DNA of 64,000 nt from Oscillatoriales cyanobacterium. GTDB lineage: Bacteria; Cyanobacteriota; Cyanobacteriia; Cyanobacteriales; Microcoleaceae. The notes below the pieces were generated by a model that was not told the DNA's origin, ran no database searches, and saw only the letters and a program-made list of their open reading frames with translations. The stretch is taken from NCBI GenBank assembly GCA_004292955.1, contig RDXX01000011.1, positions 233,336 to 297,335 of the forward strand, given 5' to 3'. Positions 3,861 to 41,968 of the stretch are shown piece by piece (the stretch's first letter is position 1; each line of letters opens with the position of its first letter). Made by a program: the position numbers and the translations under genes.

Positions 3861-4235
3861 TCATGTTTCTTTAAATACCAAATTAAAACCCAGCTCAATA
3901 CAGACAGCCTTCTCAATTTCTTCCCAATAAAAATCTTCTAAAACTCCCTGTTTGTTTTTAATTCTTTGAGCATCTACAGCTCTCATTTGACTTAAGTTTA
4001 TGTGCCGTTCTCCGTTTAGTCCATTTTGCGAAGTTGGAACAACATTCACAACGAATGGATAAGTTTTTTTCCAAGGCAATAAAGGGGCAACTATTGTAGT
4101 TGTCCCATTTTGATTGCCAACATCATTCTGCAAAATTAGACAAGGACGCTGCTTACCGGTTTCATGACCGGTCGTGGGTTCTAGATCGACCCACCATATT
4201 TCTCCTCGTTTGTAAGTTAATATCCCGTTAGGCAT
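3861..4235 (-). CDS. MazF/PemK-like toxin
   Basis: GEIWWVDLEPTTGHETGKQRPCLILQND typical of MazF/PemK; overlaps the upstream antitoxin ORF. Confidence 0.85.
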   Translation of the reverse strand: MPNGILTYKRGEIWWVDLEPTTGHETGKQRPCLILQNDVGNQNGTTTIVAPLLPWKKTYPFVVNVVPTSQNGLNGERHINLSQMRAVDAQRIKNKQGVLEDFYWEEIEKAVCIELGFNLVFKET

Positions 4236-4452
4236 TTAAACCATCGCCTACCGCAACATCCCAAACGGAAATCTCTTCTTGAAAATCAGGATCGCTAGCC
4301 TGCTCTTTATAAGCATTTTCCAGCTCTTGCATCATAATCCTCCTTTTTTCCTTCCAGAGAATTTCATTTATGAAACTACTACGATTACTTGCTAGCCGAT
4401 CGACAAAATCTAGAATTGTGTCATCCAAAGTAATACTGACTTTTTTGCTCAT
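4228..4452 (-). CDS. Antitoxin, ribbon-helix-helix/MazE-like
   Basis: Short ORF immediately upstream of and overlapping the MazF-like gene; KKVSITLDDTILDFVDRLASNRSSFINEIL. Confidence 0.75.
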   Translation of the reverse strand: MSKKVSITLDDTILDFVDRLASNRSSFINEILWKEKRRIMMQELENAYKEQASDPDFQEEISVWDVAVGDGLNA

Positions 4453-4647
4453 AAATTATTAATTTCATGCGACTGACGAGTATGACTGTACTATCATACT
4501 AACCAATGCTACAACCTTTGTCAAGGTTAATCTAGAGCTTCAAGAAGAGGTAGCAGCCCGGAGCCCAGCCTTTCATAGATGTGACGTGCTGGATTCCGAT
4601 CGAGATTGCTTCCGCTCCCGATCGTAGCAACAGACATCCAGCCTCTT

Positions 4648-5814
4648 TCATCTTTCCGGGAACAACTGACAAGCCCTGATAGTTGGCTGATTTGCCCAAT
4701 CCAAGCGAGAAGTGCCAAATCGATCCATCCAACCTTCTAAATAAGCCCGATTAGCCTTTTTTTCCTCAGGATCGGAGGTGTTCATCGGATGAGGTGCTAA
4801 ACCGAAAATAGTCGCTGTTGTCACGCAAAACATCGACTTCTGAAAACTTTGGCAAATTTGTACGCGCAAATCGTCTTCACCGCGACAGCTAGTTCGATAA
4901 ATTTCGTGCAAATAATCGGGCAGATAATGCCGCATATCTTGCATCAATTGAGTTGGTGGAATTCCTGCACCTCCGATGGGTAAAGGATCTGCAAACAAAG
5001 CCCCGTAGCTAAATTCTTTTTGTTCTTCTGGGATTTGATGTGCTTGGGCGTTGTAGGAAACTGTGCCAAAAAAAGCTGTTCCTCTAAAGAAAACTGCTTC
5101 TACATAAGGTACTGCTACATCTGCTAAAAATGTCAAGTTGGCCGATGCGGGCAGGATATCGTAGACTTCGCCGCGAATCTTGACGCTGTAGGTGATTGGT
5201 AGGGCTGCGGCGCTTACTAAACCGGCTAAGACGAAATCTACTATCTCTGCGATCGACTTAATTGTACCGGCTTCGTAGCGATCGGACAAATCGATAAATA
5301 AATCGCTCATTACCCGCCAAAACTGCCCCAAACCCGTGTAATAAGCCAACATCCGCACTTGTTCGGGTAAAAACTCTGGGAATGCTTTGTGGAGTCCCTG
5401 CATCAAAAAGTTGCCTTTTAACTTAGCTGCGATCGCCTTTTCGGCCAAATTGCTAAATTCTGGAGTATCCAAATAACTGTCCAAACCGCCGCCGCCGTGC
5501 CACATCATGGTTCTCATGCAATATTCGGCATACTCAAAATTTATGCGATCGTGCCACAAATAGCGCAGTAATTTCGGCGCTGTCACTTCTCCGTTGAAAT
5601 ATTTAAAAAACGGGAAAAGCACTAAAAATTGTTCTTCTGCGATGTAGTTAAGATTGCGAGAATACGCATCAAGAACTATGGCGTAACTTTTGAGAACTCC
5701 AACCACTTCTACTACATTTTCGGTAGATTCTGGAAGTAAAGCTTTGCCTGATTCCAAGATGTCAATGTAGGCGGATAGGGGATGGGAAGATGGTTTTAAT
5801 ACGGTACTTGTCAT
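4648..5814 (-). CDS. cupB: CO2 hydration protein of NDH-1 CO2-uptake complex (ChpX/CupB-like)
   Basis: Cyanobacterial CO2 hydration protein family (YLWHDRINFEYAEYCMRTMMWHGGGGLDSYLDTPEFSNLAEKAIAAKLKGN); 388 aa favours CupB over the longer CupA; linked to ndhD/ndhF. Confidence 0.75.
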   Translation of the reverse strand: MTSTVLKPSSHPLSAYIDILESGKALLPESTENVVEVVGVLKSYAIVLDAYSRNLNYIAEEQFLVLFPFFKYFNGEVTAPKLLRYLWHDRINFEYAEYCMRTMMWHGGGGLDSYLDTPEFSNLAEKAIAAKLKGNFLMQGLHKAFPEFLPEQVRMLAYYTGLGQFWRVMSDLFIDLSDRYEAGTIKSIAEIVDFVLAGLVSAAALPITYSVKIRGEVYDILPASANLTFLADVAVPYVEAVFFRGTAFFGTVSYNAQAHQIPEEQKEFSYGALFADPLPIGGAGIPPTQLMQDMRHYLPDYLHEIYRTSCRGEDDLRVQICQSFQKSMFCVTTATIFGLAPHPMNTSDPEEKKANRAYLEGWMDRFGTSRLDWANQPTIRACQLFPER

Positions 5815-5861
5815 TTGATTTCCTCAACCTTAATTGAATAACTATGTTTTAGCTTTGGTTC

Positions 5862-5972
5862 GTAGTTGCGCTTGAGGGTTCATGAGAGCGAGTCAACGCA
5901 CAACTACATTGAATAACTATGTTTTAGGTTTGTAGTTGCTCTCTTCGCCGGCCGGCGCTCAAGCGCAACTAC
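5862..5972. repeat. Inverted repeat (15-bp arms) plus a 20-bp direct repeat between cupB and ndhD
   Basis: GTAGTTGCGCTTGAG (5862-5876) / CTCAAGCGCAACTAC (5958-5972); ATTGAATAACTATGTTTTAG at 5833-5852 and 5908-5927. Confidence 0.75.
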
Positions 5973-37702: not shown

Positions 37703-38326
37703 GTGACAGCTACTATAATCATACCAAAAAATGCCGACAAAAAATTAGATCCAGAATCACAGTCAAAATTAGTAAACATAGCAGAAACTCAGCCAAAATC
37801 TGCTTCCCAGAAAGTCATATCTCTAGAAAAAATTTTAGTCAGACCTCGTGATAAAATGGAGTGGGTTGACGGCAACTTAGTAGAGAAAACAGGAATGACA
37901 TTCAAACACGGTCTCGCTCAAGTTAATCTAGCTACTGACTGGAGAAATTACAAAAATTCCAGCGGACAGGGAAGAGAAGTTATTACCGAAATACTTTGCT
38001 ACACTGGCAAAAATGGCCTCCGTCCCGATGTCGCTTACATCACTCCTGAACTTTTGCCACAATCGGGGAATTTTACATGATTTTCCCAAAGCTTCCCACT
38101 CATTGCAGAAATTGCTTCTCCTGAAGATAGCGGCGAAGAGTTATTTGCAAAAGCTCAAGAATATTTGGAATCGGGATGTTTAGAAGTTTGGTTGCTCTTT
38201 CCTGAAGCTAGATTAATATTTGTGAATGCCGGGGAACGCTGGCTGTTGTTTAATGCAGATGAAGTTGTTAACACTCAAAGGGTACTTACAGGTTTTAGGG
38301 TAGCTGTCAACGAACTACTCATTTAA
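37703..38326 (+). pseudogene. Uma2/DUF820-family putative nuclease interrupted by one in-frame TGA
   Basis: ORF 37703-38080, then the same frame continues FSQSFPLIAEIASPEDSGEELFAKAQEYLESGCLEVWLLFPEARLIFVNAGERW... to TAA at 38324-38326; TGA at 38078-38080. Confidence 0.82.
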
Positions 38327-38530: not shown

Positions 38531-40051
38531 ATGAGTCAGCAGGCAACCCTATTCCAGTACAAACCACTACACAAGCCAAACCAACTGATTTGCGGAACTG
38601 GTCAAACCGCTGTAGTGACTGGATGGACTGTAAAGCAAGCGATCGCCAAACACCTTCACCCCCATGAGTTTGCTGTGATTGGACAGTTGTACAGTTCAAC
38701 TCGTGGAATTAGCTTTCTGATTCGGAATCTTTTATTCAATCCCCATGTTCGCTTTTTAGTAATCATGAACGCTACAAAAGAAGACCTCAATGCTGGTGGA
38801 TGTAAGTGCCTGCTGGACTTCTTCCGTAATGGGTTTACAGAAGGAACCAGTGATACCGGACGCAAATGTTGGGTGATTAAATCTCCCATTACTGGGTATA
38901 TTGATATTGAAATTCCAGCTAGTGCTTTGGAACAATTACGACAATCGATAGAGGAACCTGTAGAAGCAAAATCCATTTCTGAAGCTGTAGCCTCTGTCAA
39001 GTCTTACTCACAACAGAACATACTTGAACCCTGGGGTAATTACTTAGAATTTCCTATCTCTGAAATCGTTCCTACTATTCAACCTGGACCGCGTTACGGC
39101 CATCGGATAGAAGGAACAACTATTGCAGAAACTTGGGTTAAAATTATTCATCGCATCAAAACAACAGGTACAATTCGACCGACTGGCTACGATGGCAAAT
39201 GGCAAGAATTAATTGATTTAATAGCTGTGGTGAAAAATGAGCCACCAGGCTTTTATTTCCCCGAACCAAATTATCTGCCCATTGACCGTCCTTTTGTTCA
39301 AGAATACACTTCACAAATATTAGATGATTCAGTGAAACGAGAAGGTGTTAAATACACTTATGGGCAGCGTCTTCGTTCTTGGTTTAATGGACGCGACCAG
39401 ATTGAACAAGTTATTAATAAATTAATAGGTGAGATTGACGCTGCTAGTGCAGTTATGTCGCTGTGGGATGTAGCCGATCACGATTCAGGTGGCAGTCCAT
39501 GCCTTAACCATATCTGGCTAAGAGTTGTGGATAACGAACTGTCAATGACTGCTACTTTCCGCAGTAACGATATGTTTAGCGCCTGGCCTGCTAACGCTAT
39601 AGGATTGCGAAAATTGCAAGAACACATTCGAGACGCGATCGCCGATCGATCGGAGTACGATCTCAAGATGGGTCCACTGATTACCATTAGTCAGAGTGCT
39701 CATATCTACGATGATACTTTCGATTCAGTTGACCGGATTATCAACCAGCACTATCAAAAAATAGTTGATGCAGAACGTAGACGTTATTTCGATCCAAGTT
39801 ATTCTGATTGCGATTCAGTGGGAAACTTCATCATCAAATTGGAGGATAAAACAATAGTTGTTTCCCAAACAACTCCTGGTAGTGGTGAAATTACCAAGCA
39901 TTATAGTGGCAGAGATCCTCTCAAGCTATTACGAGAAATTTGTGCTAATTCTCCGGCAATACAGCCTGAACATTCAGGTTACTTAGGGCTAGAAATCCAG
40001 AAGGCTTTTGGCTGCATTGCAACTGGCAAAAAATATATTCAGGATCAATAA
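38531..40051 (+). CDS. Thymidylate-synthase-like protein with N-terminal DUF4346-like region
   Basis: SLWDVADHDSGGSPCLNHIWLRVVDNELSMTATFRSNDMFSAWPANAIGLRKLQEHI resembles the ThyA catalytic Cys and RSxD...N region; N-terminus WVIKSPITGYIDIEIPASALEQL. Confidence 0.72.
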   Translation: MSQQATLFQYKPLHKPNQLICGTGQTAVVTGWTVKQAIAKHLHPHEFAVIGQLYSSTRGISFLIRNLLFNPHVRFLVIMNATKEDLNAGGCKCLLDFFRNGFTEGTSDTGRKCWVIKSPITGYIDIEIPASALEQLRQSIEEPVEAKSISEAVASVKSYSQQNILEPWGNYLEFPISEIVPTIQPGPRYGHRIEGTTIAETWVKIIHRIKTTGTIRPTGYDGKWQELIDLIAVVKNEPPGFYFPEPNYLPIDRPFVQEYTSQILDDSVKREGVKYTYGQRLRSWFNGRDQIEQVINKLIGEIDAASAVMSLWDVADHDSGGSPCLNHIWLRVVDNELSMTATFRSNDMFSAWPANAIGLRKLQEHIRDAIADRSEYDLKMGPLITISQSAHIYDDTFDSVDRIINQHYQKIVDAERRRYFDPSYSDCDSVGNFIIKLEDKTIVVSQTTPGSGEITKHYSGRDPLKLLREICANSPAIQPEHSGYLGLEIQKAFGCIATGKKYIQDQ

Positions 40052-40089: not shown

Positions 40090-40959
40090 ATGTCGGTTCT
40101 AAGCGAGTGGGATATTATCAATGAGCTAGGTAGAGGGATATTTATTTATCCTTTTAAAGGGAGAGAACATAGCATCAGAGGTTGCTGTTTACGCCTAACG
40201 GCAAGTGAATATGCTTATACATTTAACATAGATCAACAGACTCAACAGAAACAAACATTGCTTTTAAAAGATCGACAGGATAATAAACTTATTAAAATTC
40301 CAAGCCGAAAAACAGCTATAATATGGACTAATGAGTCAGTATTTGTTAACAATTATTTATGTGGAGTAATTCATTCACAAGTAAAATTAGTGTCACAGGG
40401 AATAGGACATCTTGGAACAAGAGTTAATCCTAATTATGGAGGTGTGATGGCTATAGCTCTTCATAATTTATCAGACAACGATATACAGATTAAAGTAGGT
40501 GATACTATTGCATATTTAAGAATTCATAGGTTGAGTTCAAAATCTTCTTTTTCTTCGGCATATAGAGACGATCCTGGTAAGCTTCATGATGCTATTCCTG
40601 AAGACTATCCAACACCGCCGGAACTTAGAAGCTGGTTAAACGATTCACAAAATCTGTGGAGAAAAGGAGATAAAAATGATATTTTAAAAGCGTTAGAGCA
40701 ATCGTCTGAATATAAAAAAGCCAAGGATGAGCTTAAACAGAAATCTATTCGCTACCGTTTAGTTTTTAAGTATTTGCCACAGTGGGAACCGATGGTTTGG
40801 GCTACGATTGTCGCGGCATTAGCAGCAATTGGGGGAGCAATTGGGACATGGGTAGCAGTTTTGAAACCTTCTTCACCACCTTCTTTTGATCCAAAACCAA
40901 TCATCACACCAAAGACACAAATAGCACCCACCCCTAAAGCAACCTCTGTTCCAAAATAA
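40090..40959 (+). CDS. dCTP-deaminase/dUTPase-fold protein with C-terminal TM helix, predicted catalytically degenerate
   Basis: N-terminal LSEWDIINELGRGIFIYPF and VNPNYGGVMAIALHNLSDNDIQIKVGDTIAYLRI follow the DCD pattern; canonical catalytic residues not seen; TM MVWATIVAALAAIGGAIGTWVAVL and Pro-rich tail. Confidence 0.65.
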   Translation: MSVLSEWDIINELGRGIFIYPFKGREHSIRGCCLRLTASEYAYTFNIDQQTQQKQTLLLKDRQDNKLIKIPSRKTAIIWTNESVFVNNYLCGVIHSQVKLVSQGIGHLGTRVNPNYGGVMAIALHNLSDNDIQIKVGDTIAYLRIHRLSSKSSFSSAYRDDPGKLHDAIPEDYPTPPELRSWLNDSQNLWRKGDKNDILKALEQSSEYKKAKDELKQKSIRYRLVFKYLPQWEPMVWATIVAALAAIGGAIGTWVAVLKPSSPPSFDPKPIITPKTQIAPTPKATSVPK

Positions 40960-40984: not shown

Positions 40985-41968
40985 ATGAACAAAGTATATA
41001 TATCTGGTGCTTTAACAGGAATTGAGAAACCAGCAGAAGTCAAGAGTTTCTATGAAGCCATTGGTCTGCTTTGCCAAGAAATAGGTTTTCAAGCGTATGT
41101 TCCACATATGTATACCGATCCCATCAATAACCCTGACATTAGTCCTAGCCAAGTATTTGAGAGAGACAAACATCAAGTTAGTACATCAGATTTAGTCATT
41201 GCTTACCTTGGCTCCTTCTCTTTTGGTGTGGGAATGGAGCTAGCTTATGCTGAAATGAATAATATTCCTATTGTGATTATTTATGAAAAAGATAAAGTTA
41301 TATCAAGATTTCCACTGGGTATCCCTACAGTAATTGCTGAAGTTCAGTTTCAGACTTATGAAGATGCTTTGAACCAACTTAAAAACGTTTTGGAACAGAA
41401 AAAAATACAGCAGCTTATGAATAAAACCTATCAAAGACCAAATTGGGATGAATACTTTTTGATGTTGGCAAAATTGGCCGCAACGCGATCGACTTGTCTG
41501 GCATTTCCCGTCGGCGCGGTAATCGCTAAAAACAGGCAAGTTTTAGCTACGGGTTACAACGGTTCCCCCTCAGGTTCGGTACACTGCACGGCTCAAGGCT
41601 TCTGCTATCCGGGTTTGAGCAGTTGCGATGCTAGCAAAACTTTGCCGTCGCGGGCGGTTCACGCTGAAGCAAATGCGATCGCCACTGCTGCCAAACACGG
41701 CATATCTACGGCTGGAGCTAGCATTTATGTGACTTTAGAACCCTGCATTTATTGTTTGAAATTAATTATTTCCGCCGGCATTCGCGAAGTATTTTACGAA
41801 ACTGTTTTTAACAGCGGAGAAAAGGCGGCCTTGAGAGATTCTTTTATAGCCGATGGTATTGTTGAATTCAAACAAATTAAGCTATCTGAAAGTACAGCAA
41901 AAAGATCGGCTTCATTTCTGCTGAATCCTACATCTGTTCCAAAAGACGATCGACCATTCGGTTCGTAG
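40985..41968 (+). CDS. Nucleoside 2-deoxyribosyltransferase-like domain fused to dCMP deaminase
   Basis: N-domain VYISGALTG...SDLVIAYLGSFSFGVGMELAYAEMNNIPI; C-domain with intact HAEANA and PCIYC deaminase motifs. Confidence 0.82.
   Translation: MNKVYISGALTGIEKPAEVKSFYEAIGLLCQEIGFQAYVPHMYTDPINNPDISPSQVFERDKHQVSTSDLVIAYLGSFSFGVGMELAYAEMNNIPIVIIYEKDKVISRFPLGIPTVIAEVQFQTYEDALNQLKNVLEQKKIQQLMNKTYQRPNWDEYFLMLAKLAATRSTCLAFPVGAVIAKNRQVLATGYNGSPSGSVHCTAQGFCYPGLSSCDASKTLPSRAVHAEANAIATAAKHGISTAGASIYVTLEPCIYCLKLIISAGIREVFYETVFNSGEKAALRDSFIADGIVEFKQIKLSESTAKRSASFLLNPTSVPKDDRPFGS

Follow-up and report, generated by a model that had tools for sequence, protein, structure and literature searches.

DCD and dUTPase rank among the classic enzymes of housekeeping metabolism, and the protein described here, which we designate DCD-TM, is a relative that departs from both. 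It shares with Dcd and DCD-DUT (TIGR02274, PF22769), which are also its best structural neighbours, the fold, the length of the core and the order of the motifs, but in contrast to Dcd it has lost Ser111, Arg115, Glu138, the Asp of motif I and the GKYQxQ motif at the C-terminus, and it carries an additional transmembrane (TM) anchor. Dcd itself is a homotrimer in which the active site is formed between subunits. Trimeric Dut (PF00692) belongs to the same superfamily, and a DCD-TM clade linked to dut genes retains the Asp of the base-recognition hairpin within LDP, whereas the protein analyzed here has Asn at that position, lacks the dUTPase motif V GFGSTG and is membrane-anchored; moreover, where DCD-TM adjoins Dut, it does so as a separate gene. 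The anti-phage dCTP deaminase (PADLOC dCTPase, NF041025) is a Zn-dependent deaminase of another fold, although such a protein precedes DCD-TM and dut at one locus (L176), and the operon considered below likewise includes a deaminase, fused to a domain of the nucleoside 2-deoxyribosyltransferase (NDT) type. CBASS TM effectors and Thoeris similarly place a nucleotide-binding-fold domain with a short C-terminal TM module beside an NDT/TIR-type or nucleotide-handling enzyme, but have no homology to DCD-TM, and to our knowledge a DCD barrel has not been described as a sensing domain in these systems.

Two further lines of published work are pertinent. The machine-learning survey DefensePredictor predicted, without validation, a dUTPase domain as defensive and found it sometimes in defence islands (PMC13092281); the text of that article is silent on whether a DCD-TM partner is present. 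Human DNPH1, a relative of NDT, takes dUMP as a slow substrate (PMC10483697) and resembles the NDT-like domain of the DCD-TM partner; Dut and an NDT-like enzyme could thus both lower a deoxyuridine (dU) nucleotide. A literature search yielded no description of a DCD-TM-like protein, an earlier mention in Burroughs 2015 being possible.

Fold, membrane anchor and recoded pocket

The gene lies in a 64,000-nucleotide stretch (the window) of contig RDXX01000011.1 of an Oscillatoriales cyanobacterium, and its coordinates and translation were reproduced exactly (Table 1). Sequence profiles place residues 3-160, weakly, in the DCD/dUTPase superfamily. The TIGR02274 match (E 5e-10, 39.3 bits) falls far below the curated cut-off of 92.8, and that to PF00692 (E 0.007, 16.5 bits) remains under the gathering score of 22 for trimeric dUTPases, while PF22769 (DCD) matches with an E-value of 1.7e-5 and 25.4 bits in hmmscan, or 27.3 bits in a second search, against a gathering score of 27. 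A single-chain AlphaFold model, built with 31 family sequences, has a core pLDDT of 85-95, and the top Foldseek matches include the T. pacificus dUTPase 8y1w, M. tuberculosis DCD-DUT 4a6a and E. coli Dcd (E 1e-9 to 4e-11, 150-175 columns aligned). The DCD/dUTPase fold proposed in the initial annotation is borne out by the HMM matches, the model and the structural search alike, and the modelled β-barrel can be regarded as secure. The C-terminal TM helix and Pro-rich tail of that annotation are also recovered, the former as a model helix of high hydropathy and the latter as a segment of low pLDDT. Hydropathy points to such an anchor in essentially every family member, bacterial and archaeal, and the suggestion of a membrane-tethered protein is well supported.

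Table 1. Features of the thymidylate operon and of the DCD-TM protein, in window coordinates
Feature	Coordinates	Strand	Evidence
thyA-type thymidylate synthase	38531..40051	+	active-site PC and RSxD aligned
DCD-TM ORF, 289 aa	40090..40959	+	ORF call/translation, homologs
DCD/dUTPase-fold domain, residues 1-160	40090..40569	+	AlphaFold/Foldseek, HMM matches
Motif II V98-S102, corresponding to DCD Ser111...Arg115; Ser to Val, Arg to Ser	40381..40395	+	alignment with canonical Dcd
G106-H-L-G-T110, family signature, base-recognition hairpin (motif III)	40405..40419	+	family alignments
Ala123 in place of Glu138, the general base of DCD	40456..40458	+	alignment; E138 also in PDB mutant titles
Predicted transmembrane helix, residues 234-258	40789..40863	+	model helix; hydropathy 2.19
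Pro-rich disordered tail, residues 259-289	40864..40956	+	pLDDT about 40 (AlphaFold)
NDT-like (nucleoside 2-deoxyribosyltransferase/DNPH1-type) domain, downstream gene	40985..41404	+	PF05014 E 3e-5, below cut-off
dCMP/cytidine deaminase domain, HAE and PCxxC zinc motifs	41429..41965	+	PF00383 E 3e-25; ComEB-like

Catalytic residues were mapped by alignment with canonical Dcd proteins from neighbouring loci, with Dcd positions given in E. coli numbering. The Dcd segment GKSTYAR...LEF reads SQVKLVS...IAL in DCD-TM, which places Val98 at Ser111, Ser102 at Arg115 and Ala123 at Glu138, a catalytic position that is also the subject of mutants named in the titles of matched PDB entries; LEFxN has become IALHN, the hairpin Asp that is the base of dUTPases is Asn113, and motif I, SYGYDIR in Dcd, reads RGCCLRLT, without its Asp and Arg. 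The absence of the motif I Asp and the replacement of the catalytic Glu by Ala had been recognized at the outset, but that list was incomplete, as Ser111, Arg115, GKYQxQ and the hairpin Asp are lost too. An ordinary Dcd misread as something else is ruled out by both scores and residues.

These substitutions are conserved: the replaced catalytic positions are common to all aligned family members, His107, Thr110 and Pro114 are invariant in both family alignments (A1 and A3), and pocket motifs I-III are maintained in their recoded form, centred on GHI[GS]T, in archaea and bacteria. In the dut-linked clade, the sequences GHI[GS]TTLDP and [YF]HS[KR]V are nearly invariant across both domains of life; in the clade of the window protein motif II is further eroded (HSQV, YSVV, NSRV) and the motif III Asp is replaced by Asn. 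With its DCD fold, substituted catalytic residues, GH[IL][GS]T signature, TM helix at the C-terminus and NDT or Dut gene next downstream, DCD-TM is a coherent new family-level variant of the superfamily. The family-wide replacement of catalytic positions lends good support to the earlier view that the protein is not a DCD/dUTPase enzyme.

Operon, downstream partner and optional insertion

The initial annotation, though partly upheld, had missed the setting of the gene, in which most of the information lies: a thymidylate operon, an NDT or dUTPase partner, and a cassette that is mobile and sometimes defence-associated. In the window DCD-TM is separated by 38 bp from the preceding thyA-type gene and by 25 bp from a gene encoding an NDT-like/dCMP-deaminase fusion, the deaminase of which scores 88.6 against the 400-bit cut-off of NF041025 and resembles the ComEB dCMP deaminase. 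In cyanobacteria the operon that holds DCD-TM is presumably essential. The synthase is itself unusual, combining an MtrA-like N-terminus, a methanogen-type ThyA core and a DUF4346 (PterinBD) C-terminus. Scanning the operon for promoters and terminators returned no more than expected by chance. Upstream, a Uma2-type endonuclease ORF (37703-38080) encodes 125 aa, compared with 207 aa at the same place in genome G017 (L030), and is probably truncated.

About 50 non-redundant loci make up the family, spread over cyanobacteria, Clostridia, Bacilli, methanogens, plasmids and one prophage. Among 51 non-redundant loci of the GHxxT type, the gene directly downstream encodes NDT in 27 and Dut in 21, 48 in all, never both, with neither in three (L126, L177 and L200). 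The commonest cyanobacterial order is thy/DCD-TM/NDT/deaminase, with thyX/DCD-TM/dut/deaminase, thyX/DCD-TM/dut/dcd and thy/DCD-TM/dut/dcd as variants. In the tree the cyanobacterial NDT-type clade forms a single group (support 100/99) that includes one dut-linked pair, and the partners must therefore have been exchanged. The pocket change from TT..DP to TR..NP tracks the clade; a partner swap as its cause does not hold as a strict rule, since two loci (L031 and L032) combine TR..NP with Dut. One further match, L045, was rejected as a family member, its similarity being limited to the TM tail of a protein kinase.

ThyX, DCD, dUTPase, the Thy protein and the NDT-deaminase were searched for in a panel of 46 genomes enriched for DCD-TM, 24 of which belong to the source genus (Microcoleus-like, as judged by named relatives). 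Within the genus four genotypes occur: A, thy, DCD-TM and NDT-deaminase (4 of 24); B, thyX, DCD-TM, dut and deaminase (2 of 24); C, thy and deaminase only (7 of 24); and D, thyX, dut and deaminase (11 of 24). Genotypes C and D correspond to A and B with an empty site, mapped directly in all seven thy-deaminase genomes and in 7 of the 11 thyX-dut-deaminase genomes, and DCD-TM is an optional insert. Across the panel NDT is present in 13 of 20 DCD-TM genomes and in none of the 26 others (Fisher 8e-7, a guide only, given the enrichment of the panel). Neither a dUTPase of the PF00692 or PF08761 type nor a second DCD gene is present in the source genome, which is 99.9% complete; this would be compatible with DCD-TM serving as a replacement dUTPase; that candidate was rejected, as the seven genotype C genomes lack Dut, Dcd, NDT and DCD-TM alike, from which it follows that DCD-TM is not simply such a replacement and that NDT belongs to the cassette. 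For those genomes (G001, G002, G008, G013, G014, G019 and G021) the absence extends to PF00692 and PF08761 dUTPases and canonical Dcd.

The DCD-TM protein also changes faster than its neighbours. Between genomes G000 and G017 it is 73% identical, against 98% for both Thy and the NDT-deaminase, with a dN of 0.169 (Thy 0.012, NDT-deaminase 0.010), a dS of 0.27 (0.09 and 0.18) and a dN/dS ratio (omega) of 0.63 (0.14 and 0.06). The raised dS makes allele exchange likely in addition to rapid protein change, and the high omega could reflect relaxed constraint instead of an arms race. An omega below 1, together with the conservation of motifs across domains, speaks against a dead gene. Two broken copies, L041 (in G423) and the frameshifted L119, in operons that are otherwise largely intact, are in line with DCD-TM being dispensable.

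Other observations concern the synthase and Dcd genes of these loci. Short remnants of a thyA-like N-terminus adjoin the thyX or thy operon (L197:614-706, L029:11018-11119) and may be traces of one synthase having been replaced by or exchanged for another at the same locus. Matches to ThyX break near positions 85/89 of the Pfam profile in L197 (G012) and in G007, G018, G026, G031, G035, G036 and G047, mostly within longer open frames of 440-707 aa, a pattern that suggests an intein in ThyX. At L044:4180-5925 a canonical Dcd, matched at 4180-4563 and 5710-5925, is interrupted inside a single open frame of some 582-613 aa, which similarly suggests an intein in Dcd.

Mobile forms beyond the cyanobacteria

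Among archaea the dut-linked form is found in Methanosarcinaceae and one other genome, among bacteria in Lachnospiraceae, Clostridium and further Clostridia, as well as on plasmids of Priestia and Peribacillus. It is rare, at about 1% of genomes: 3 of 391 in Clostridia, 5 of 400 in Bacilli and 6 of 394 in the methanogen's phylum, counts that include some more distant DCD-TM forms. Two IMG/VR contigs contain DCD-TM, and in one of them (L201) the DCD-TM/dut pair closely follows an amidase endolysin gene, in a prophage lysis region; annotated phages gave only ordinary DCD/dUTPase of archaeal viruses, and the idea of a phage-encoded family was dropped.

Several loci have defence genes nearby, as plain associations in uncontrolled counts: type I restriction genes (PADLOC type I RM) lie upstream of DCD-TM/dut in L128, a SIR2 protein of the defence candidate PDC-S25 in L151, and the preceding gene in L176 matches the PADLOC/NCBIfam anti-phage dCTP deaminase, below the NCBI full-length cut-off. 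Four other non-cyanobacterial loci (L123, L125, L181 and L177) have no clear defence genes, and a search of the DCD-TM protein itself with the PADLOC HMMs gave no known anti-phage system, only TmtA at E 0.009.

More distant relatives occur in other gene sets. On rhizobial plasmids (L152:1289-8088, L153:5998-8088) a distant DCD plus two-TM protein forms a three-gene set with an annotated MazG pyrophosphohydrolase and an FMN oxidoreductase, a type of set once immediately preceded by an AAA ATPase/UvrD helicase pair resembling Gabija. At L184:2767-4400, in the methanogen's phylum, a deoxynucleoside kinase gene (PF01712) comes directly after a distant DCD-TM.

Possible functions

The conservation of the pocket motifs in altered form and the nucleotide enzymes encoded alongside make a nucleotide binder or sensor plausible. 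We put at about even chances a reading in which the catalytically dead, membrane-anchored DCD-TM senses a ligand within a two-gene cassette that it forms with a deoxynucleotide-clearing enzyme. DCD-TM, probably a trimer, would have its barrel facing the cytoplasm and its TM helix in the membrane, and its partner, an NDT/DNPH1-like hydrolase in the source genome and a dUTPase in other members, would hold the ligand low, a deoxyuridine or thymidine nucleotide being the likeliest candidate. A disturbance of the pool, for instance by phage, might then fill the recoded pocket and bring the membrane segment, or proteins attached to it, into another state. The cyanobacterial cassette lies in the dTMP-making operon, and elsewhere the DCD-TM/dut pair is a mobile accessory unit. 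The conserved, recoded pocket, the lost catalysis, the anchor and the constant pairing with an enzyme that can clear dU nucleotides are in keeping with a sensor of a partner-cleared ligand. A fold kept in bacteria and archaea while the pocket was recoded, catalysis dropped and an anchor added would represent a new nucleotide-sensing module, and the constant pairing provides a directly testable, guard-type hypothesis linking core cyanobacterial dTMP synthesis with possible phage defence.

An antiphage role, to which the mobility and the neighbours of DCD-TM/dut lend support, can be advanced only tentatively; against it, the cyanobacterial gene lies in the thymidylate operon, with no defence island. 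Somewhat doubtful is the more specific proposal that DCD-TM and a Dut or NDT-like hydrolase represent a new class of two-gene nucleotide-surveillance immunity, silent while the partner clears deoxyuridine nucleotides, triggered by a phage-disturbed pool, and built in cyanobacteria into the host thymidylate operon. A metabolic regulator or scaffold would agree about equally well with the cyanobacterial setting, namely a pseudo-DCD that tethers or allosterically tunes Thy, dCMP deaminase, NDT or Dut at the membrane according to dTTP/dCTP, with no role in immunity. dTTP is a known feedback inhibitor of canonical DCD, dTTP-bound DCDs are among the structural matches, and the gene occurs in thymidylate operons with either a ThyA-like or a ThyX synthase; we nevertheless consider such a regulator unlikely, as 18 same-genus genomes (genotypes C and D) have the core enzymes without DCD-TM, the protein accompanies dut alone on plasmids and a prophage outside the cyanobacteria, and its fast evolution is atypical of a core regulator.

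The sensor reading must also be weighed against an enzymatic one, in which a pocket rebuilt around conserved Glu82, His107 and Thr110 (plus Ser96/Asn126) would perform a different chemistry on a deoxynucleotide. Conservation of the pocket motifs in the dut-linked clade does exceed what mere loss of function would lead one to expect, but the eroded motif II and the Asp to Asn change in the clade of the window protein are odd for an enzyme, and we know of no superfamily member with a residue set of this type; we regard this as quite improbable. A far smaller likelihood attaches to DCD-TM being the dead subunit of an active Dut or Dcd hetero-oligomer that it recruits to the membrane: Dut belongs to the same superfamily, has composite active sites and is encoded next to DCD-TM in 21 loci, yet the source genome, like other NDT-type genomes of the panel, has no other DCD or trimeric dUTPase, which makes the mechanism impossible there. 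A decaying gene without function, to which the loss of catalytic residues and the two broken copies might point, is barely credible, given omega values of 0.22-0.63 and a gene that is intact at nearly all loci; conservation of its motifs and TM helix throughout the family, across domains of life, largely refutes decay.
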